Source: Desulfofundulus kuznetsovii DSM 6115
Lineage (GTDB): Bacteria > Bacillota > Desulfotomaculia > Desulfotomaculales > Desulfovirgulaceae
DNA length: 64,000 nt
Assembly (NCBI RefSeq): GCF_000214705.1
Contig: NC_015573.1
Coordinates: forward strand, 3,045,001-3,109,000
Direction: 5' to 3'
This document shows, one piece after another, positions 6,785 to 64,000 of the stretch (the first letter of the stretch is position 1; every line of letters begins with the position of its first letter). Position numbers and translations under genes: made by a program. A model generated the notes under the pieces. The model saw only the letters and a program-made list of their open reading frames with translations. It was not told the DNA's origin and ran no database searches.

Positions 6785-8050
6785 CTACCTGATAAACCCC
6801 TGGTAGCTGCGCATCAGCATGTGGGATTCAACCTGCTTCATGGTATCCAGGGCCACCCCCACCACAATCAACAGGGCGGTTCCGCCAAAGTAAATCTGGG
6901 GGATGCGGGTAGCCAGCAGGACAAAATTCGGCAGGATGGCAATTAAGGCCAGGAAAACAGCCCCCGCCAGGGTTACCCGGCTCATGACCCGGCTGATATA
7001 TTCGGCTGTGGGGCGTCCGGGCCGGATGCCCGGGATGAAGCCGCCGTATTTCTTAATGTTTTCGGCAATATCCACCGGGTTCATGATTACCGCCGTGTAG
7101 AAGTAGGTAAAGCCAATCACCAAAAGGGCGTAAATGATGGTGTGCAGGGGCGTACCCCAGGCAAAAAAGGCCAGGTACCAGTTGCCGAACCAGGTGTTTT
7201 GAAACCAGGTGGCAAGCTGTTCCGGAAACATCAAAATGGAAGAAGCAAAAATCACCGGAATGACGCCGGCCTGGTTCACCCTCAAGGGCAGGTGGGTGGA
7301 CTGCCCGCCGTATACCCGGCGTCCCACCACGCGTTTGGCGTACTGCACCGGAATACGCCGCTGTCCCTCATTGACCGCCACAATGGCGGCAATGACCAGT
7401 GCACCAATGACCAGGAGCAGGATCACGCTCAGGATATTGATGGTCCCGGCCTGCAGGTACTCCACCACCCTTACCGCACCCGCCGGAACCCGGGAGACAA
7501 TACCGGCAAAGATCAAAAGCGAGATGCCGTTGCCAATGCCCTTTTCGGTAATCTGTTCCCCGATCCACATCAGGAAGGCCGTACCGGCGGTCAGGGTCAG
7601 GGCCACCAGGAGGTAGTGGCCGACGGTGGGGCTCACCAGCACATGCTGGTTGCGCAGGGCAAAGCTGATCCCGATGGCCTGGATAAACGCCAGCACCACG
7701 GTGAGGTAGCGGGTGTACTGGACGATTTTTTTCCGGCCCTCTTCCCCTTCCTTGGCCAGCCGCTCCAGGGCGGGAATGACCACCGTCAGGAGCTGCATTA
7801 TAATAGAAGCGTTAATGTAAGGGGTAATACTCATGGCAAAGATGGAAAAATTTTTGAAGGCTCCACCGGAGATCACGTCAAAGAAGCCGAAAAGGGCTCC
7901 CGTTTCCAGCAGTTTCGCAAAAACTTCGGTGTTAACCCCCGGCACGGGAATGTGAGCGCCGATGCGGAAAACAAAAAGCATGGCCAGGGTAAAGAGAAGT
8001 TTTGAACGCAGCTCATCAATCCTGACGGCGCTTCTGAGGCTGTCCAGCAC
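6785..8050 (-). CDS. secY: Preprotein translocase subunit SecY
   Basis: Central channel of the Sec translocon, 421 residues with about ten hydrophobic helices. It begins with the cytoplasmic helix LRSAVRIDELRSKLLFTLAM. Conserved segments include RIGAHIPVPGVN, the plug and second helix NFSIFAMSITPYINASIIMQ, and VGRRVYGGQSTHLPLRVN in the ribosome-binding loop. It starts one base after the rplO stop codon, as usual in the spc operon. Confidence 0.99.
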   Translation of the reverse strand: MLDSLRSAVRIDELRSKLLFTLAMLFVFRIGAHIPVPGVNTEVFAKLLETGALFGFFDVISGGAFKNFSIFAMSITPYINASIIMQLLTVVIPALERLAKEGEEGRKKIVQYTRYLTVVLAFIQAIGISFALRNQHVLVSPTVGHYLLVALTLTAGTAFLMWIGEQITEKGIGNGISLLIFAGIVSRVPAGAVRVVEYLQAGTINILSVILLLVIGALVIAAIVAVNEGQRRIPVQYAKRVVGRRVYGGQSTHLPLRVNQAGVIPVIFASSILMFPEQLATWFQNTWFGNWYLAFFAWGTPLHTIIYALLVIGFTYFYTAVIMNPVDIAENIKKYGGFIPGIRPGRPTAEYISRVMSRVTLAGAVFLALIAILPNFVLLATRIPQIYFGGTALLIVVGVALDTMKQVESHMLMRSYQGFIR

Positions 8051-55103: not shown

Positions 55104-55282
55104 ACCACCTCCGGAGCAATTCGCAGGGCTACACGGAAGTGGTTCACGTCTCGATAGGGCTTACCTGCCGCGCCTTTCCGGTAACCACCACTGGCTGCGG
55201 GGTAACAGGCCTGCTTGCAGGGTAACATTTTTTGGTTATAATGAAAGCAGTATATGATTTTAAAATAAGGAGGCGTTTCTTG

Positions 55283-55561
55283 ATGAAGGACTGCCCGGTA
55301 TGCCATGTACCCCTTAGGGAAGTGCCCCGCTTCGGGGTCTTGCTGGATGTCTGCTCCCGCTGCCACGGGGTGTGGCTCGACGGCGGAGAACTGGAAAAGG
55401 TGATTGCCCTGGCCCGGGAGTTCCACGGCGAATTTCAGCACCACAAAGATTACGACGAGCACCACAGCTATCACCATCACGACCACTACGGCCATCACGG
55501 CTACCACAAGCACAAAAAGAAACGCAGCATCTTCGAGCTATTTGAAGATCTGTTTGATTAA
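55283..55561 (+). CDS. TFIIB-type zinc-ribbon protein with His-rich region
   Basis: 92 residues from the ATG at 55283, behind AAGGAGG. CPVCHVPL and DVCSRCHGVWLDGGELE form the zf-TFIIB zinc ribbon. A histidine-rich stretch (DYDEHHSYHHHDHYGHHGYH) follows and the protein ends with a basic KKKKR-like patch and an acidic SIFELFEDLFD tail. It may bind or store zinc or nickel or act as an RNA-processing or chaperone-like factor; the function is unknown. Confidence 0.8.
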   Translation: MKDCPVCHVPLREVPRFGVLLDVCSRCHGVWLDGGELEKVIALAREFHGEFQHHKDYDEHHSYHHHDHYGHHGYHKHKKKRSIFELFEDLFD

Positions 55562-55585: not shown

Positions 55586-56977
55586 TTACGGCCGCCCTTC
55601 TTTTTTCCGGACCTCCCCCCGGGCCAGGGAGAAATATACGCCGCCGGCGCAGAGCACGGCAAAGAGCAAAAAGGATATATGCATGCTTTTCAGCAAGAGC
55701 GGACTCGCAGACGGGGTAATGGTCGTGCCCTTCAGATAAAGGCCAAAGAAGAAGGTCACCAGGGCCATGCTTAAAGCCTGACCCACCAGGCGCATGGTAC
55801 CCAGGGTGGCGGAAGCCACCCCGTAATAGCGTTTTTCCACTGCACTCATTACCGCATTGGTATTGGGTGAAGAAAACAGGGCAAAGCCAGTGCCAAGCAA
55901 CACCAGATATCCCATTATCGTCCACAAAGGAGTGGTTTTGTTTATAAGGGAAAAAAGGAAAAGCCCGACAAAGCTTAAAGCCATCCCCAGGGAAGCAAGC
56001 AGCCGCGGCTCGACACGGTCGGAAAGCCTGCCGGCCAGCGGGGAAAGAAGGGCCATCAGAACGGGCTGTGCCAGGAGGATAAAGCCGGCAGTCTGGGCAT
56101 CCAGCCCCCTGACCACCTGCAGGTACAGGGAAAGCAAAAAACCCACCGCAAAGGTGGCGCTATAGTGAATGAGCGCCGCCAGGTTGGAAAAGGCAAAAAC
56201 CAGGTTGCGGAAAAGGTTCAGGTTGATCAACGGATAGGGGTAGCGCAGCTCCTGCCGGATAAACAGGGCCAGCAAAACCAGACCCATTGCCAGGACCCAG
56301 CGGGCAGAGGTGCTGGTGTTGGCCGACGCGATGCCGTACATGAATGCCGCCATGCCCAGGGTGTAAAGGAACGCCCCCGCCGGGTCATATTTTTCACCCC
56401 GCACATCCCGCCATTCTCCCTTGAGTTTAAACACGGTGACCAGGACCACAATTAAGCCAAGCAAAAAGTTCAGGTAGAAAATATACCGCCAGCCAAACTG
56501 GTGGGTTAAAAACCCGCCTACCACCGGCCCCAGGGATAACCCCGTATAAACAGCCGCCACGTTGATGCCCAGCACTTTCCCCCGTTCCCGGGGAGGAAAT
56601 ACGCCGGTCAGGATGGCCACGCCGGTACCGAAGATCATGGCCCCGCCAATGCCGTGCAGGATGCGGAAAAGGATCAGCATTTCCCCTGAAGTGGCCAGAC
56701 CGCTTAAAAGGGACAGCAAGGTATAAGTAATGATCCCGACCAGAAAGACTTTTTTCCTGCCGTACAGGTCCGCCGCCCGGCCAAAGGGAAGCAAGAAAAC
56801 AGAGGAGGCCAGGAGATAGGAAGTAACAATCCAGTTGAGCATCAATGCTTCCAGGTGAAACTCCCGACCGATGGCCGGAACGGCCAGGTTAACGGCACTG
56901 CCCATAAAGGGAGTTAAAAAGGAAGCCAGAGTAGCCGCCAGCAAAACGTATTTTTTCATGCTTTCGTTATCTTTCAT
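55586..56977 (-). CDS. MFS exporter, 14-helix DHA2-like
   Basis: About 463 residues, with 14 likely membrane segments. Signature loops are FLLPFGRAADLYGRKKVFLV and the motif C-like VYTGLSLGPVVGGFLTHQFG. The family includes EmrB/QacA multidrug exporters. The start is uncertain: ATGs at 56977 and 56959 and a GTG at 56989 are in frame, none with an ideal ribosome-binding site. A clean AAGGAGGTG lies further upstream, out of frame with any start. Confidence 0.85.
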   Translation of the reverse strand: MKDNESMKKYVLLAATLASFLTPFMGSAVNLAVPAIGREFHLEALMLNWIVTSYLLASSVFLLPFGRAADLYGRKKVFLVGIITYTLLSLLSGLATSGEMLILFRILHGIGGAMIFGTGVAILTGVFPPRERGKVLGINVAAVYTGLSLGPVVGGFLTHQFGWRYIFYLNFLLGLIVVLVTVFKLKGEWRDVRGEKYDPAGAFLYTLGMAAFMYGIASANTSTSARWVLAMGLVLLALFIRQELRYPYPLINLNLFRNLVFAFSNLAALIHYSATFAVGFLLSLYLQVVRGLDAQTAGFILLAQPVLMALLSPLAGRLSDRVEPRLLASLGMALSFVGLFLFSLINKTTPLWTIMGYLVLLGTGFALFSSPNTNAVMSAVEKRYYGVASATLGTMRLVGQALSMALVTFFFGLYLKGTTITPSASPLLLKSMHISFLLFAVLCAGGVYFSLARGEVRKKEGRP

Positions 56978-57313
56978 AAAAAAAAGCACACGCCCCCGGG
57001 GGACAAGAGCGTTGGCGGGTACACCTCCTTATTTAAATTAATACCTTTAAAAATTCAACAGGCCGGGCAAAATTCCTCCCGGGAACAACGTTCGAATTTC
57101 TGGCCTTGAATTTTTATGGGCCTGGAACCCCTATATCTGAAAAACTGGTGAACGAAGAAGATGCCCCCGTCGACCCAGTTGCACCCGGTCGTCAGGCATT
57201 TGAGCAGGGAATTATCCCTGAACCGGGATAAAACCTGCCGCCTCAGGCAGGATAAAATGTAAAAGGTGGGCGCCCCAAATTTACTGTCGGGACACCCCCC
57301 TCTTCCTGTTGCG
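56978..57313. other. Gap between the MFS and multicopper oxidase genes
   Basis: No supported gene. A minus-strand open frame (57,456-57,055) overlaps the oxidase 3' end out of frame and ends in a Cys-rich stretch (CSREEFCPAC); it has no recognisable family or ribosome-binding site and is not called. No clear U-tract terminator was found for the oxidase. Confidence 0.35.
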
Positions 57314-60300
57314 TTAACGCCCTGGAAGCACAAGCAAAGTAGTCTTGTTCCCATCTTCGACACGCAAAAGGCCCCACATACCGAGTTCAAGATCCCAGCG
57401 AACAATTCCGGAACGATACATGAAGTCACCGGGAGTTCCCAGCGGGCTGATTGCACCCTCTATTTTTGCCGAAAAACCTTCGCCTACTGTAATCGCGCCC
57501 CTGACGGCTATGACCTGGGAAAAGAGGTCCCCCGGCTGCTGCCGGTAGTTGTGGCCATGGAGGACGAAGCTGTGCGCCCGCGGTTTGTCGGACGGCATAA
57601 GTAGACGGATCGTTACCGGATCACCGATTATTGCCTCGAATAGAGGCGTGGCGGGATCGCCGTGGAAGAGGGAACTAAAGACCTTGTGCACCTGCGGTAT
57701 AACTTTTAACCGGTTCTCAAAAGGTTCCGAGCGGTAATTGAATGCCTTCATTCCCTGATCTTCGGGGTCCAGATCCCCTGGAATTGGAACTATAACAAAC
57801 GCTTCCGGAATGACCTTGCCCCCGGCATTTAGAAGGAATACACCGTCGTGCATGATCAGTACCATTTCCCGTACGGCCGGCAGGAACGGGTTCAGGATAT
57901 CTAGCTGAGCACCGTGCATCTGTCCTGCACCGGTTCGGGGGTGGCGATAGGATGAGCCCCGCGGCTCCGTGATCAGAGCTCCAAACAGGCCGTGGTGCCG
58001 GTGGTTTCTTATGTCGGCGTAATCCGTGAGACTAATCTCCAGGCCGGGTGATTCAACGAACCAGCGGTAAGTTATGCTTTCTCCCGGCCCAATCGTCTGG
58101 TCGGGATTAAAGCCGATAGTGGCTCCATCTGATCCCAGCACGTCGTATTTGACGAGTTGAGCATGCATGGAAACCCGGTTCGAGTATGGCCAGGGGGCTT
58201 CAACCGGTACAGCCGGGTGCTGGTGGTCGGGTAGGGTTTCGGGTAAGCGGTTCGTAAGGGTTACTTCCACACAATCACCGGCATTTGCCCTTAAAATGAG
58301 AGGCTCGGGGTTCTTTGCACCGGATAGGATTTCATCGACCTCTTCCGCCCTGGCAAAGATTAAACCGAACGGATCATGGTCGCCATGGGCATTGTAATTA
58401 ATTTTTGTGCCCAGAGCAACAATATCAAAGTGCTTGATGGGTGTCCCCGGCGGACAGGGGTTCCCGGGATCTACCGCCTTTGGTGGCGGGGCTCCGGTAG
58501 GTTGGGGGCGGGGAATCGTGCGTACGGGCGGCTCCGGCCTGTCCGGCAGCGGCAATAACTCGGGTACCCGTTGGCCAAAGGCCCGCATAATACCCCACAC
58601 GCCCAGCCAGAGGTCGTCGATACCGCCGGAAAAATACAGCATATCGAAATCCCCCGGGCCTTCGCCTTCCACGGCGAATTCGAAGTTGAACGCTTCCGAG
58701 ATACCGATATGTTTGGCCTGAGTCAATGGCGATTCCAGATCGCGGCTTTCAAACAACCATTTCTGGCGGTGCAGATTGAAAGCATGGGATTCTTCGTGTG
58801 CACCCTGGATCAACCGGATGCGTACAGGGTCTCCGATATATGCACCCAGGAGTGGAGTAGCCGGGTCCCCGTGTACAAAAGAGCTGAACACGTACGCCGG
58901 GTCGCCGCCCCTGATCTGGAACGGCTCGTTCGTGTAGTTAAAAGCCATTACCCCCTGGTCGTTAAACGTGCCGGGCACCGGCGGCGGGTTCAACGGTTTT
59001 CCCCCGGCCGTGACCAGCGGAGCAAAATCGTGAACTGCCAGGCAGAATTCCCGGAAATCGGGAATGAAGGGATTTTCAATAATGGCCTGGCTCCCAGCTT
59101 CGATTGGCTCCCCCGTATTTTGTTTCCGGAATTTCGATCCGGGCGGTTCTACTATAAGCGCGGCGAACAGGCCGTGATGCTGGTTTTGGAGAGCGAACAG
59201 GTGATCGTGGAAGAATGCCGTCTTAAGCTCGGTATCGGCAAACCAGCGGTACCTTATCGTCTTATTGCGCTCAATTCCGGTGAAATAGTTCCAGCCGACA
59301 TTTGAGCCGTCGGACGCCAGCGGATCGAATTTGACGAAGTGAACGTGCATGCCACAGAAGGGGGTTTTAGTCAGGACCTGGAAGGCGCTGGGTCCCAACG
59401 TCACCGGCAGCTTATTGGTAAAGGTCAAGTCTATGCACTCACCTGCATTGGCACGGATAAACAGGGGTTCCGGCTTCTTCCGGCCGGCCAGGATATCTTC
59501 TTCATCTTCGGCCAGGACGAATAAACGGCCTTCGGGATCGTGCCAGCCGGCTTTATTGTAAACAAGATCTTTCTGGATGGCCACGATATTGTATTCCCTT
59601 ACGGGGACGCCTGGTGGACACGGGTTGGTAAACGGCGCCCCCGGCACCGGGTTAGGGTCAAAGGCAGCTCGTTCCAGATCCGTAGGACCGAAGCCCCGGT
59701 CAGTGCCGAGCGGCGGTAAAGGCGCCCTCTTGCCGTATGTGCCCGGGATGAAGAATGGAAATCCCGGACGTTCCGGTGTTGGCGGCGGAGGAGCCGGCCG
59801 GTCGGGTAACGGCAGCAGGCGCCGGACGGGCTGGCCGCTGGGGTAGACGCGGCTACCGTCTTCCAGCACGTCATGGGTCCGAAAAATCCCCCACATACCC
59901 TCTGAGAAATGAGGATACAGGTGACAGTGGAATATCGCATCGCCATAGCAACGGTGTAAGCTCCCTGCACCATAAAGCACATCAAATGTAAATGTGCTTT
60001 GAGGCGCCAGATCCCGTGAGTCGTTTAGTTCCGAGTCGACATTATCCGGGTCGAATAGCCACTGGTGGACATGTAAATGAAAGATATGTGTCTCCTTCAC
60101 ACCGCCGTGAACAACGTGGAATCGTACAGGATCTCCCCGGTAAGCCCGCAGCACGGGGGTTGCCGGGTCACCAAACGCCCACGAATCGTGGTGCACTTCC
60201 TCGCCGACACACCCAGGGCACACCTGGCCGCTTAAAATTAAGGCCAGACGATTTCGCATTGGTTCGGAACGGTAGTTTATGGCATGAGTCGCCCCAGGTT

Positions 60301-60925
60301 GGCCAGTGATAGGGTCAACAGGAGGCTCCCCGTTCCTGTTCAATACCTCCGGTTCATCGTGGAAGATGGTAACGTATTCACGAAAATCCGGTAAGAAGGG
60401 GTTGTGAACATCGACCACCGTGCCGCTCCTGGCCTCCTCGCCCGTTTCAGGGTCGGTCCAGGTTGACCCGGGAGCTTCTATGACGAGCGCGCCGAACAGG
60501 CCGTGTAAATTGCTTCCCCGTTCGCCGGCCAGGGGGTTTCCGAGGTCACTGAAATGGAACGCCCCTTTTTGATCAGCTACGAAGGTGTAAACGATCTTCT
60601 CTCCGGGTGCTACCGTTGTATTGGGGTTTTCGCCGGCAAAGGAGCCGTCGGAGGTACGGACATCCATGTGCAGGCCCTTGACATTCAGTGAGGCAGGAAA
60701 GTCCAGGGCATTTTCAAACACGATTTCTACGGTATCTCCGACGTTAGCCCGGATGACCAGTGGACGAACGAGGTCTACGGGCGTAAAAGGATTTGCCTTT
60801 ACAAGCTCCTCGACCTTCTGGCGGTCCTCTTTCAAAACGTACATCCGGCCATTCGGGTCGTGATCTCCGAATGTATTATAGACGATGCGAATCGGTATGG
60901 CTACTACCTCATATCTCCTGAGCAC
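57314..60925 (-). CDS. Giant three-repeat multicopper oxidase, MnxG-like architecture
   Basis: 1,203 residues, GTG start. Three tandem units of about 400 residues each begin alike (MLRRYEVVAIPIRIVYNTFG, EYNIVAIQKDLVYN near 460, KHFDIVALGTKINYN near 855) and each holds two cupredoxin-like domains, joined by proline-rich linkers. Copper ligands: His280, His283, His285 and His287 in HIFHLHVHQW; His333-Cys334-His335, His339 and Met344 in HCHLYPHFSEGM; His527 and His529 in GMHVHF; His573 and His575 in FFHDHL. A full mononuclear plus trinuclear set is thus present once, in motif order 3-4-1-2. The third unit has lost most ligands. No signal peptide. Size and six domains recall Bacillus MnxG, a Mn(II) oxidase; the substrate is not proven. 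Confidence 0.87.
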   Translation of the reverse strand: MLRRYEVVAIPIRIVYNTFGDHDPNGRMYVLKEDRQKVEELVKANPFTPVDLVRPLVIRANVGDTVEIVFENALDFPASLNVKGLHMDVRTSDGSFAGENPNTTVAPGEKIVYTFVADQKGAFHFSDLGNPLAGERGSNLHGLFGALVIEAPGSTWTDPETGEEARSGTVVDVHNPFLPDFREYVTIFHDEPEVLNRNGEPPVDPITGQPGATHAINYRSEPMRNRLALILSGQVCPGCVGEEVHHDSWAFGDPATPVLRAYRGDPVRFHVVHGGVKETHIFHLHVHQWLFDPDNVDSELNDSRDLAPQSTFTFDVLYGAGSLHRCYGDAIFHCHLYPHFSEGMWGIFRTHDVLEDGSRVYPSGQPVRRLLPLPDRPAPPPPTPERPGFPFFIPGTYGKRAPLPPLGTDRGFGPTDLERAAFDPNPVPGAPFTNPCPPGVPVREYNIVAIQKDLVYNKAGWHDPEGRLFVLAEDEEDILAGRKKPEPLFIRANAGECIDLTFTNKLPVTLGPSAFQVLTKTPFCGMHVHFVKFDPLASDGSNVGWNYFTGIERNKTIRYRWFADTELKTAFFHDHLFALQNQHHGLFAALIVEPPGSKFRKQNTGEPIEAGSQAIIENPFIPDFREFCLAVHDFAPLVTAGGKPLNPPPVPGTFNDQGVMAFNYTNEPFQIRGGDPAYVFSSFVHGDPATPLLGAYIGDPVRIRLIQGAHEESHAFNLHRQKWLFESRDLESPLTQAKHIGISEAFNFEFAVEGEGPGDFDMLYFSGGIDDLWLGVWGIMRAFGQRVPELLPLPDRPEPPVRTIPRPQPTGAPPPKAVDPGNPCPPGTPIKHFDIVALGTKINYNAHGDHDPFGLIFARAEEVDEILSGAKNPEPLILRANAGDCVEVTLTNRLPETLPDHQHPAVPVEAPWPYSNRVSMHAQLVKYDVLGSDGATIGFNPDQTIGPGESITYRWFVESPGLEISLTDYADIRNHRHHGLFGALITEPRGSSYRHPRTGAGQMHGAQLDILNPFLPAVREMVLIMHDGVFLLNAGGKVIPEAFVIVPIPGDLDPEDQGMKAFNYRSEPFENRLKVIPQVHKVFSSLFHGDPATPLFEAIIGDPVTIRLLMPSDKPRAHSFVLHGHNYRQQPGDLFSQVIAVRGAITVGEGFSAKIEGAISPLGTPGDFMYRSGIVRWDLELGMWGLLRVEDGNKTTLLVLPGR

Positions 60926-61003
60926 CTTTCATCACTCTCCGTACTGAAAAACAGGATCATACTGCGGACACCTCATATCTCCTTAGCGGTTTTCATCACC
61001 TTG

Positions 61004-61708
61004 TTAAACCAGGGGGAACTGCGTTTGACGTTCAAAGGGCAGGAATATTGCTATCTGTTGTCTAGGGACGAAAAGCGGAAGCGGGAAGATAAAATCTGGA
61101 GCATTGCTAAAGCGGATGTTGACATCTTTAAGAAATACGAAGTCTAGCCCTATTTTCTCGAGCCTGGCTACGATAATCGGCCGGAACACCTGGCCCAAGA
61201 TCGATAATTGCCTGGGACGCAGGACAAAAAGAATGTCCCGCCCTATATGCCTTCTCTCGATATCAGTTATTTTACTCTCTGCCTCATTCAGGGCTTCCTT
61301 CATTTCCCCGTCTGCATCATATAACATTCCTTTCATTTCCCAGACTGCCTCATCCAGTATTTCCTTTATCTCCCCGACTGCCTTGTTCAAAACTCCCTTT
61401 ACTTCTTCCACTGCCTTATTCAGGTCCGAATCATGTTTGTTTTCTTTAATGTGGATATCACCCCCGGACTCCAGTACAGGGATGGGGAATTCCTTATTTT
61501 CTATGAAAAACGCCGCAAGATTGGCCAGGCTTATGTGGAATATGCGACCGACGAGTTGAACCGGTATACCTTCTTGTGCTTCGACGATCACAATATCCGC
61601 CTCTTTACCGATCAGTTTGCCCGTCATAAAAAAGGGAAACGATTCCATTATTACAACGATTCTTGATCCAATGCCTTTTTCAAACAAAAAATCAAGGGAA
61701 GGGAACAT
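61004..61708 (-). CDS. Unknown protein with five 11-residue repeats, upstream of the multicopper oxidase
   Basis: 234 residues, ATG behind AAGGAGTGAG. Two similar beta-rich segments (about 15-80, with FFMTGKLIGKEADIVIVEAQ; and about 160-230, with RPIIVARLEKIGLDFVFLKD) flank five perfect 11-residue repeats: LNKAVEEVKGV, LNKAVGEIKEI, LDEAVWEMKGM, LYDADGEMKEA, LNEAESKITDI. Hendecad periodicity predicts a long amphipathic helix or coiled coil. It ends 78 bp before the oxidase on the same strand, so the pair is likely an operon. The flanking segments faintly resemble small spore-coat-type DUF2642 domains, but I do not claim that family. Confidence 0.75.
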   Translation of the reverse strand: MFPSLDFLFEKGIGSRIVVIMESFPFFMTGKLIGKEADIVIVEAQEGIPVQLVGRIFHISLANLAAFFIENKEFPIPVLESGGDIHIKENKHDSDLNKAVEEVKGVLNKAVGEIKEILDEAVWEMKGMLYDADGEMKEALNEAESKITDIERRHIGRDILFVLRPRQLSILGQVFRPIIVARLEKIGLDFVFLKDVNIRFSNAPDFIFPLPLFVPRQQIAIFLPFERQTQFPLV

Positions 61709-61851
61709 GCTTACTCACTCCTTTTTAAATGAAGTTAATAAATAATTTATGAGGCGAAGTTGCAAAAAGTACCAATAGCCGGCTAGCAGGCTCGTGCTGC
61801 CTCGCCTGCAGTGGACTTTCACCACCAAGTTAACGCCCATGCCCGGCGCAC

Positions 61852-61884
61852 AAAAAATCGCCTTGCCACACGACAAGGCGATTT
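61852..61884 (-). terminator. Intrinsic terminator after hrb
   Basis: Minus-strand stem AAATCGCCTTG/CAAGGCGATTT (perfect, 11 bp) with an eight-base loop and a following TTT run, about 50 bases past the hrb stop. It separates hrb from the oxidase operon. Confidence 0.9.
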
Positions 61885-61936
61885 GTGAAACGTTTATGGA
61901 ACGAGCTTTGGCTATAATTTATTTTAGAGGAAAAAG

Positions 61937-62632
61937 TCACCTTTCCTTCTCAAACTCCCCTTTGCCCACTCCGCAAACAGGACATGTCCAGTCGTCGGGA
62001 AGTTTTTCAAAGGGCGTTCCCGGAGGTACACCGTTTTCCGGATCGCCTACTTCCGGATCGTAAACGTAGCCGCAGACAGAACATACGTATTTATCCATTT
62101 TTACAGTCACCTCTGCTTGTTTTTGAATAAAGGTGGGAGCGGTTTTAGGAATACTCCCCCTTTTTACCTGGTGATAGTAAGCATAGGTCATGGGAGTACC
62201 TTCTTTTAACACTTTTGCATCGGTGAGTTCGCCAATAAAAATGGTGTGCGTTCCGGCATCTACTTCTTGAATTACTTTAGCCTCCAGGTAGGCGAGAACA
62301 TGTTCGGCGGGGTAGGGTAACCCATTTTGACTGAGTTCATACTTCAGGCCATCGAACTTATCCACTTCCCTGCCGCTTTTAAAGCCAAAGCGCCCGATTA
62401 AGGAAAGAGGAGCCTCCTGGGCTAATACGGAAACCGCAAAAACCCTGCTTTCCTTGATAAACTCGTGGGTCAGGTTTTGCTTGTTGATGCTCACGGCAAT
62501 TGTCGGTGGCTCATTTGAAATTTGAAACACCGTATTGGCAATCTGGCCGTTAAAACGGTCACCTTTTTTAGAGGTGATAACATAAAGACCGTAACTGATC
62601 TTGTGCAGGGCTTTGGAGTCCAAAAAGACCAT
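61937..62632 (-). CDS. hrb: High-molecular-weight rubredoxin (flavin reductase-rubredoxin fusion)
   Basis: 231 residues. The amino-terminal flavin-reductase-like FMN domain ([40 protein letters not shown]) is fused to a carboxy-terminal rubredoxin with [20 protein letters not shown] and [11 protein letters not shown], the two iron-binding CxxC knuckles. This is the Hrb architecture known from Moorella, where it passes electrons from NADH-dependent steps to the flavodiiron protein FprA. The TTG at 62623 ([11 protein letters not shown]) is an alternative start with better spacing from AGAGGGGG. It follows fprA. Confidence 0.92.
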
Positions 62633-62867: not shown

Positions 62868-64000
62868 CTACAACACCTCCCCCAGCTTACGTCCCATTTC
62901 CCGCACCGCTTCCAATTCGTCCTCACCGGGGATATACTGAAGGTTGACGACATCCAGCGGCACTTCCCAGCCCATCGATTGCATAAACGCCTTTACTTCT
63001 TTCGCACCCTGACCACCCCAGCCGTAAGAACCAAAGGCAAACCCGATCCGGTTTTTCGGCCTCAGTCCTTTAAGGTAGGTGAGAAAAGCACTCACGCTGG
63101 GCAGCATGCCGTTGTTTAAGGTGGGCGTGCCAATTAAAACGGCTTTTGATACAAGCACGTCGGGCATAATCTCCGAGATGTGGCTGGTCTGCAGGAACCT
63201 GACCGTAACGGGAATACCGGCATCCTCCAGGCCGTCCTGCAGGGCCAGAGCAATTTTCTTCGTAGAACCCCACATGGTATCGTATACTATAAGCGCTTTT
63301 TTCCCGGTTTCGTGATTGGCCCACCGGCGGTAAACCTGCAAAATCCGGGGCAGGAAGGAGCGCCAGATCACCCCGTGGCTGGGGGCAATCACGTCAATGG
63401 GCAGCTGGGAAACAACCTCCAGGGCCTTGTTTACCTGGTCGCCGTAGGGCAAAACTATATTGGCGTAGTACTTTGCCGCTTCCTCGTGAACCACATCCCA
63501 TCCCAGCTCATCATCAAAACGTTCAATGCTGGCAATGTGCTGTCCAAAGGCATCGTTGGGCAAAAGCAGTTTCTCTTCAGGGATATAGGTGACCATTGAG
63601 TCGGGCCAGTGCACCATGGGAGTGTGCACAAACTTTAAAGTGCGGGAGCCGATGTTGAGTTCGTCACCGGAATTAACAACCACAAAGTCCCAATTCCTTT
63701 TGTAATGCCGCTCCAAACCCTTTTTCCCCTGGGGCGAAGTTACGATTTTGGCACCCGGGGCGAGATCCATTATTTTGGGAACGCTACCAGAATGATCCAT
63801 TTCTACATGATTGACCACCAGGTAGTCGATTTTGGCCGGATCAACAACTTTTTTGATCCTGCTCAACATTTCATCAAACAGGTAGTGTTTGACCGTATCC
63901 ACCAGCACAATTTTTTCATCCACAATCAGGTAGGCATTGTAGGTGGTTCCCCGCGGAGTGAGATAGCCATGAAAGTAACGCAGGTCCCAATCGATGCCGC
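62868..64000 (-). CDS. fprA: A-type flavodiiron protein FprA (5' end beyond window)
   Basis: The frame is open to the right edge, where it reads GIDWDLRYFHGYLTPRGTTY, so the start is outside the window. FprA reduces oxygen to water and/or NO to N2O. The metallo-beta-lactamase-like diiron domain shows NHVEMDHSGSVP (HxExDH) and further ligands in MVHWPDSM and APSHGVIW. The flavodoxin domain (LIVYDTMWGSTKKIA, GFAFGSYGWGGQGAKEV) binds FMN at the carboxy end. With Hrb downstream it forms a detoxification pathway typical of strict anaerobes. Confidence 0.95.
   Translation of the reverse strand, partial: GIDWDLRYFHGYLTPRGTTYNAYLIVDEKIVLVDTVKHYLFDEMLSRIKKVVDPAKIDYLVVNHVEMDHSGSVPKIMDLAPGAKIVTSPQGKKGLERHYKRNWDFVVVNSGDELNIGSRTLKFVHTPMVHWPDSMVTYIPEEKLLLPNDAFGQHIASIERFDDELGWDVVHEEAAKYYANIVLPYGDQVNKALEVVSQLPIDVIAPSHGVIWRSFLPRILQVYRRWANHETGKKALIVYDTMWGSTKKIALALQDGLEDAGIPVTVRFLQTSHISEIMPDVLVSKAVLIGTPTLNNGMLPSVSAFLTYLKGLRPKNRIGFAFGSYGWGGQGAKEVKAFMQSMGWEVPLDVVNLQYIPGEDELEAVREMGRKLGEVL

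Follow-up and report, generated by a model that had tools for sequence, protein, structure and literature searches.

A putative two-gene Mnx manganese oxidase locus with a fused helper gene in the anaerobe Desulfofundulus kuznetsovii

The closest described system is the Mnx manganese oxidase of Bacillus, in which a ring of alternating MnxE and MnxF subunits is bound to one MnxG (MnxE3F3G), mnxEFG being the minimal active set and mnxA-D being dispensable for activity (PMC5622069). We analyzed a window of 64,000 nucleotides (the whole stretch of DNA considered here; NC_015573.1, positions 3,045,001 to 3,109,000) from D. kuznetsovii DSM 6115 and observe that it carries an intact gene for a relative of MnxG, the manganese-oxidizing subunit of the Bacillus complex, together with a directly upstream gene for a MnxF-MnxE fusion (mnxFE, 61004-61708) that the initial annotation of this DNA had overlooked. 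The host is a thermophilic, spore-forming sulfate reducer and a strict anaerobe. The MnxG family itself is already known; what is new is its occurrence in this host and the fusion of the helpers in swapped order: in the literature searched, the coverage of which was partial, we found no report of mnxG in Desulfotomaculum or in anaerobes and no description of a fused MnxF-MnxE arrangement.

MnxG and its copper sites

The initial annotation had called a multicopper oxidase of 1,203 residues at 57314-60925, built of three repeated two-cupredoxin units, with copper motifs 3 and 4 at residues 280-344 and motifs 1 and 2 at residues 527-575. These calls hold: the frame on the minus strand, which starts with GTG, has no internal stops, the three units align with one another at 38-44% identity, and all twelve copper ligands are invariant in 86/86 aligned homologs and also kept in six MnxG relatives without MnxE/F. 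The features of the gene are as follows.

57314..60925, minus strand: mnxG, six-cupredoxin multicopper oxidase, 1,203 aa, GTG start (ORF calling and MnxG match)
60185..60193, minus strand: HHD, residues 245-247, within GEEVHHDSW (alignment of homologs)
60065..60088, minus strand: copper motif 3, residues 280-287, HIFHLHVH, with H280 (type 1), H283 (type 2) and H285 (type 3); conserved in 86/86
59894..59929, minus strand: copper motif 4, residues 333-344, HCHLYPHFSEGM, with C334, H339 and M344 (type 1) and H333 and H335 (type 3); conserved in 86/86
59339..59347, minus strand: copper motif 1, residues 527-529, HVH (H527, H529); conserved in 86/86
59201..59209, minus strand: copper motif 2, residues 573-575, HDH (H573, H575); conserved in 86/86

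The ligands from H280 to M344 lie at the end of unit 1 and those from H527 to H575 at the start of unit 2; we take H280, C334, H339 and M344 to make up a complete type 1 site and the eight other histidines a complete trinuclear site. Pfam matches are found for Cu-oxidase_3 at residues 58-152 and Cu-oxidase_2 at residues 253-350. As had been stated, unit 3 is degenerate; the same holds for unit 1 in its first half and for unit 2 in its second half. With respect to individual positions, H86 and H124 occur in all four fused-clade copies and in no other row of the 86-row alignment, and C326 is likewise confined to four rows; their positions fall within the degenerate half of unit 1 and close to motif 4. 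As in the MnxG of Bacillus sp. SG-1, the N-terminus shows no apparent signal peptide.

The proposed likeness to Bacillus MnxG is supported by an end-to-end match to the solved MnxG of Bacillus sp. PL-12 (9bxa_A; 1,365 bits, 50% identity), and identity to the SG-1 protein is 52%. An AlphaFold2 model of residues 1-1195, built from an alignment of 32 sequences (pLDDT 87.4, pTM 0.88), superimposes on 9bxa_A over the whole chain (TM 0.96; Z 42.0, rmsd 2.0 Å, 1,190 residues aligned). In this overlay the two ligand sets are predicted to meet between unit 1 and unit 2, where the active site had been expected, and the two sets of histidines are thus neither far apart in the model nor, at 86/86, poorly conserved.

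Furthermore, the protein has the attributes of a Bacillus-type MnxG: about 1,200 aa, six cupredoxin domains, a full-length match, motifs 3-4 in domain 2 with motifs 1-2 in domain 3, and MnxE and MnxF encoded alongside, though fused in one gene. The motif order had been regarded as an unusual circular permutation, which we reject: the PCR primers published for MnxG lead from region D (HCHL) onward to region B (HQQH), and the order C/D then A/B was therefore already known and is canonical for MnxG (PMC3039467). Other classes do not fit. The Pseudomonas-type MnxG model NF041487 gives 379.5 bits against a cut-off of 3,100; a two-domain laccase would have about 300 aa and two cupredoxin domains rather than 1,203 aa and three two-domain units; and a ceruloplasmin would carry its trinuclear ligands in domains 1 and 6, whereas here the ligands are at 280-344 and 527-575. 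A genome search with PF07731 matched nothing, MnxG included, and is hence uninformative on other multicopper oxidases.

The HHD motif is present in 85/86 MnxG homologs, the exception being a MnxE/F-less relative (G010), and it is absent from all six MnxE/F-less relatives and present in the MnxE/F-associated MnxG groups. In the sequences compared this amounts to one split in the tree, so HHD would be a marker rather than proof of function.

The mnxFE gene and its surroundings

The gene directly upstream of mnxG encodes both helper domains in a single chain, and a possible promoter and a terminator-like hairpin lie ahead of it.

61004..61708, minus strand: mnxFE, 234 aa, MnxF domain, helical repeat linker, MnxE domain (structure-chain and profile matches)
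61469..61687, minus strand: MnxF-like domain, residues 8-80 (mnxF profile i-E 6.8e-13; 9bxa_E)
61277..61456, minus strand: linker, residues 85-144, about five 11-residue repeats (repeat analysis)
61007..61276, minus strand: MnxE-like domain, residues 145-234 (mnxE profile i-E 2.7e-23; 9bxa_B)
61743..61770, minus strand: possible sigma-K-like promoter, AC-N17-CATAAATTA, ahead of mnxFE (weak motif match)
61852..61880, minus strand: terminator-like hairpin and T run after hrb, separating hrb from mnxFE (read from the sequence; absent from the consensus scan list)

The product matches MnxF (9bxa_E) at residues 9-80 and MnxE (9bxa_B) at 145-223, and profiles built from separate-gene loci (70 MnxE and 72 MnxF sequences) span residues 138-234 and 8-80, respectively. 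In Bacilli, mnxE, mnxF and mnxG are separate genes in that order, while in the window F and E follow each other in one chain. The linker consists of repeats such as LNKAVEEVKGV, LNKAVGEIKEI and LDEAVWEMKGM, matched by a 33-bp tandem repeat in the DNA at 61279-61383, and in one other fused copy (L122) it is shorter by exactly 11 residues, that is, by one unit. The fusion is present in three Desulfofundulus genomes, an Ammonifex MAG and one further lineage, G451. Four of the five fused copies have no cysteines; the Bacillus MnxE studied carries a disulfide (PMC5622069). The MnxFE model, examined for an Sm/LSm-like fold (an N-terminal helix and a five-stranded barrel) in each half, reaches a pLDDT of only 52, with 9bxa_B as the best Foldseek match, followed by Sm/LSm ring-protein chains; when E, F and fused sequences were aligned together, the F rows came out misplaced, and that alignment was left out of folding. 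Profile comparison of MnxE with MnxF as possible paralogs was weak (probability 18.7%). Regarding the remaining Bacillus genes, the SG-1 upstream ORFs gave no mnxA-D-like match in the window at E 0.01, and an MnxC-like query, run without a positive control, gave no match in the genome.

An AC-N15-17-CATA pattern is kept ahead of all five fused loci, with an exact fit to the consensus CATANNNTA only in the window copy; by simple shuffling, such a motif is expected by chance at 0.6% per 100 bp. The host genome encodes sigK, above cut-off. The same-strand upstream neighbors, a flavodiiron protein (62868-63923) and a flavin reductase-rubredoxin (61937-62632), are of the O2/NO-reduction type, and an operon joining them to mnx is disfavored by the hairpin and by the congener G065, which has them alone. 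Whole alignment of the upstream region with G064 shows both flanks kept and only a short intergenic stretch exchanged: the segment between hrb and the mnx promoter (window 61774-61854) is 80 bp in D. kuznetsovii and about 207 bp in G064, with both sides conserved. Two genes from mnxG, a Zn-ribbon (TFIIB type) protein on the plus strand (55232-55561) ends in a His-rich tail, HHKDYDEHHSYHHHDHYGHHGYHKHKKK, that is possibly metal-binding.

Distribution, selection and host

Full-length MnxG was found in 5/113 genomes of the order, three of them among the six genomes of the genus; the mnx unit was not detected in the other 3/6 genus genomes. Across the phylum, 12/398 genomes gave a MnxG match, two of these being only fragments. 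A midpoint-rooted maximum-likelihood tree of MnxG resolves three fully supported groups, one with no MnxE/F detected, one fused, and one with separate genes (Bacilli and others). We observe that mnxFE-mnxG forms a discrete 5-kb unit.

56959..61936, no strand assigned: presence/absence unit around mnxFE-mnxG (replaced by 384 bp in congener G065, both flanks kept)

Across the fused clade, dN/dS is 0.06-0.10 for mnxG and 0.12-0.20 for mnxFE, and both genes are therefore under constraint (purifying selection); both are intact in four genomes. In G451 (L122, 9356-10261), mnxG stops at residue 291 near the end of a contig, and in G329 (L123, 6142-6663) it survives as a fragment only. The unit is dispensable, because its site is empty in G065, it is undetected in half of the genus genomes, and fragments are found in G451 and G329. 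Elsewhere in the family, five loci of Bacilli (L020, L024, L040, L048 and L063) carry two adjoining mnxG genes, often with one mnxE/F pair. The MnxG relative of G010 (L093, 8151-11858) is stand-alone, has no MnxE/F and starts with a hydrophobic, signal-like segment; some 520 bp upstream of it, at 7434-7630, there is a cobalamin riboswitch (RF00174, 127 bits).

The strictly anaerobic host that had been supposed from the sequence is supported. D. kuznetsovii is a sulfate reducer, a search with working controls detected no haem-copper oxidase in the genome, and of its cytochrome bd a remnant of subunit I (136 positions; G000:C1:685521-685964, L124) is left beside an apparently eroded ABC transporter gene. 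Contamination is an unlikely source of the mnx locus, since the host genome is a single contig and several independent assemblies also contain the locus. Cultures of D. kuznetsovii withstood 15 min at 140 °C. In the close relative C1A60, vegetative cells die on long exposure to oxygen, and for this reason its spores were stored under air (PMC4817712).

Interpretation and comparison with known systems

Judged from gene content and sequence, the locus is best read as a Bacillus-spore-type Mnx manganese oxidase operon reduced to two genes, mnxFE and mnxG. We consider it reasonably probable that the two genes give a functional Mnx complex on spores, one that would oxidize Mn(II) when spores meet oxygen, with both activity and location inferred. 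Mn(II) would be oxidized near the type 1 copper of MnxG, giving up electrons there that would travel on to the trinuclear site at the boundary of domains 2 and 3, where O2 would be reduced to water. In place of the three MnxE and three MnxF of Bacillus, the ring would be formed by three fused MnxFE chains. Late in sporulation the mother cell would produce the complex, which would then be deposited on the spore, so that the oxidase would be active only once a spore, as opposed to a growing cell, encounters oxygen. A strict anaerobe could keep an oxygen-using enzyme because it would act on spores only, and the missing signal peptide fits the Bacillus MnxG pattern of spore placement. There is no need for the undescribed role that had been proposed, because the family already has a known one, the oxidation of Mn(II) on spores.

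Points in favor of a spore manganese oxidase are the MnxG match and structural overlay, the ligands, the MnxF/E domains, HHD, dN/dS, sigK and the sigma-K-like motif. Against it stand growth in the absence of O2 and in the presence of sulfide, expected to reduce Mn oxides, the dispensability of the unit, the lack of cysteines in four of five fused copies, and the weak promoter evidence for sigma-K control of mnxFE. A more elaborate version, which we offer tentatively and hold to be doubtful, is that the anaerobe equips spores rather than cells with the oxidase, that the ring consists of three MnxFE chains held by a helical bundle of the 11-residue repeats, and that Mn oxide from air exposure could be an oxygen/sulfide buffer for the spore or an electron acceptor for the germinated cell.

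The O2/NO-reduction type neighbors directly upstream on the same strand, the lack of an apparent signal peptide and the reduction of O2 to water by multicopper oxidases would also suit a cytoplasmic enzyme of vegetative cells, either an oxygen scavenger or a Cu(I)/Fe(II) oxidase, that works with the flavodiiron and flavin reductase-rubredoxin proteins. However, the hairpin separates these neighbors from mnxFE, G065 keeps them without mnx, and the MnxF/E domains and HHD signature belong to a Mn oxidase complex, leaving such a role unlikely. The same retained partners and signature point to the metal-oxidase branch rather than to a laccase-like oxidase of organic substrates on a MnxG scaffold; after MnxG, the best-scoring sequences are two-domain laccases, and the copper sites are the same, but the MnxE/F-less relatives form a separate clade, and we regard this reading as highly improbable. 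Patchy occurrence (3/6 genus genomes), the empty site in G065, the mnxG of G451, cut short at a contig end, and the remnant in G329 could instead indicate an acquired, dispensable gene that does little or nothing for an anaerobe and is in the course of being lost. This is countered by dN/dS of 0.06-0.20 across the fused clade, intact ligands throughout and both genes intact in four genomes, and it has in our view only a small chance of being correct.

There is no settled answer to why bacteria oxidize manganese, and a strict anaerobe in culture that has MnxG, very tough spores and no haem-copper oxidase detected would separate spore protection from a benefit to aerobic growth. In addition, the fused helper would offer a simpler, perhaps heat-stable, two-chain version of the three-protein Bacillus complex, and its gene would show a way in which the helper ring can be built.

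Compared with the Mnx complex of marine Bacillus PL-12/SG-1 (MnxE3F3G, structure 9bxa), the locus is alike in MnxG length, fold, copper ligands and their order, and in having MnxE and MnxF domains encoded directly upstream of mnxG. It differs in its F-E fusion with a repeat linker, where Bacillus has separate genes in the order E-F, in its obligately anaerobic host and in that no mnxA-D-like genes were found in the window. The MnxE/F-less relatives (G010, G116, G131, G146, G162 and G200) share with the window MnxG complete copper sites and three units, but they form a separate clade, have no MnxE/F detected nearby and are without HHD. With Pseudomonas MnxG (NF041487, about 1,900 aa) the name and the multicopper oxidase superfamily are common, yet it is a different protein.

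Ceruloplasmin also has six cupredoxin domains, and the MnxG model aligns with it over 807-825 residues, at 17-18% identity. There the trinuclear site is shared by domains 1 and 6, so that the last-to-first unit site is kept, whereas that of MnxG lies between domains 2 and 3. In two-domain laccases of the SLAC type, the trinuclear site joins the second domain of one unit to the first domain of the next, with separate subunits forming a trimer that has three sites; MnxG, with three units and one site in one chain, can best be described as three laccase-like two-domain units in tandem, of which only the interface of units 1 and 2 has retained its site, rather than as truly circularly permuted.
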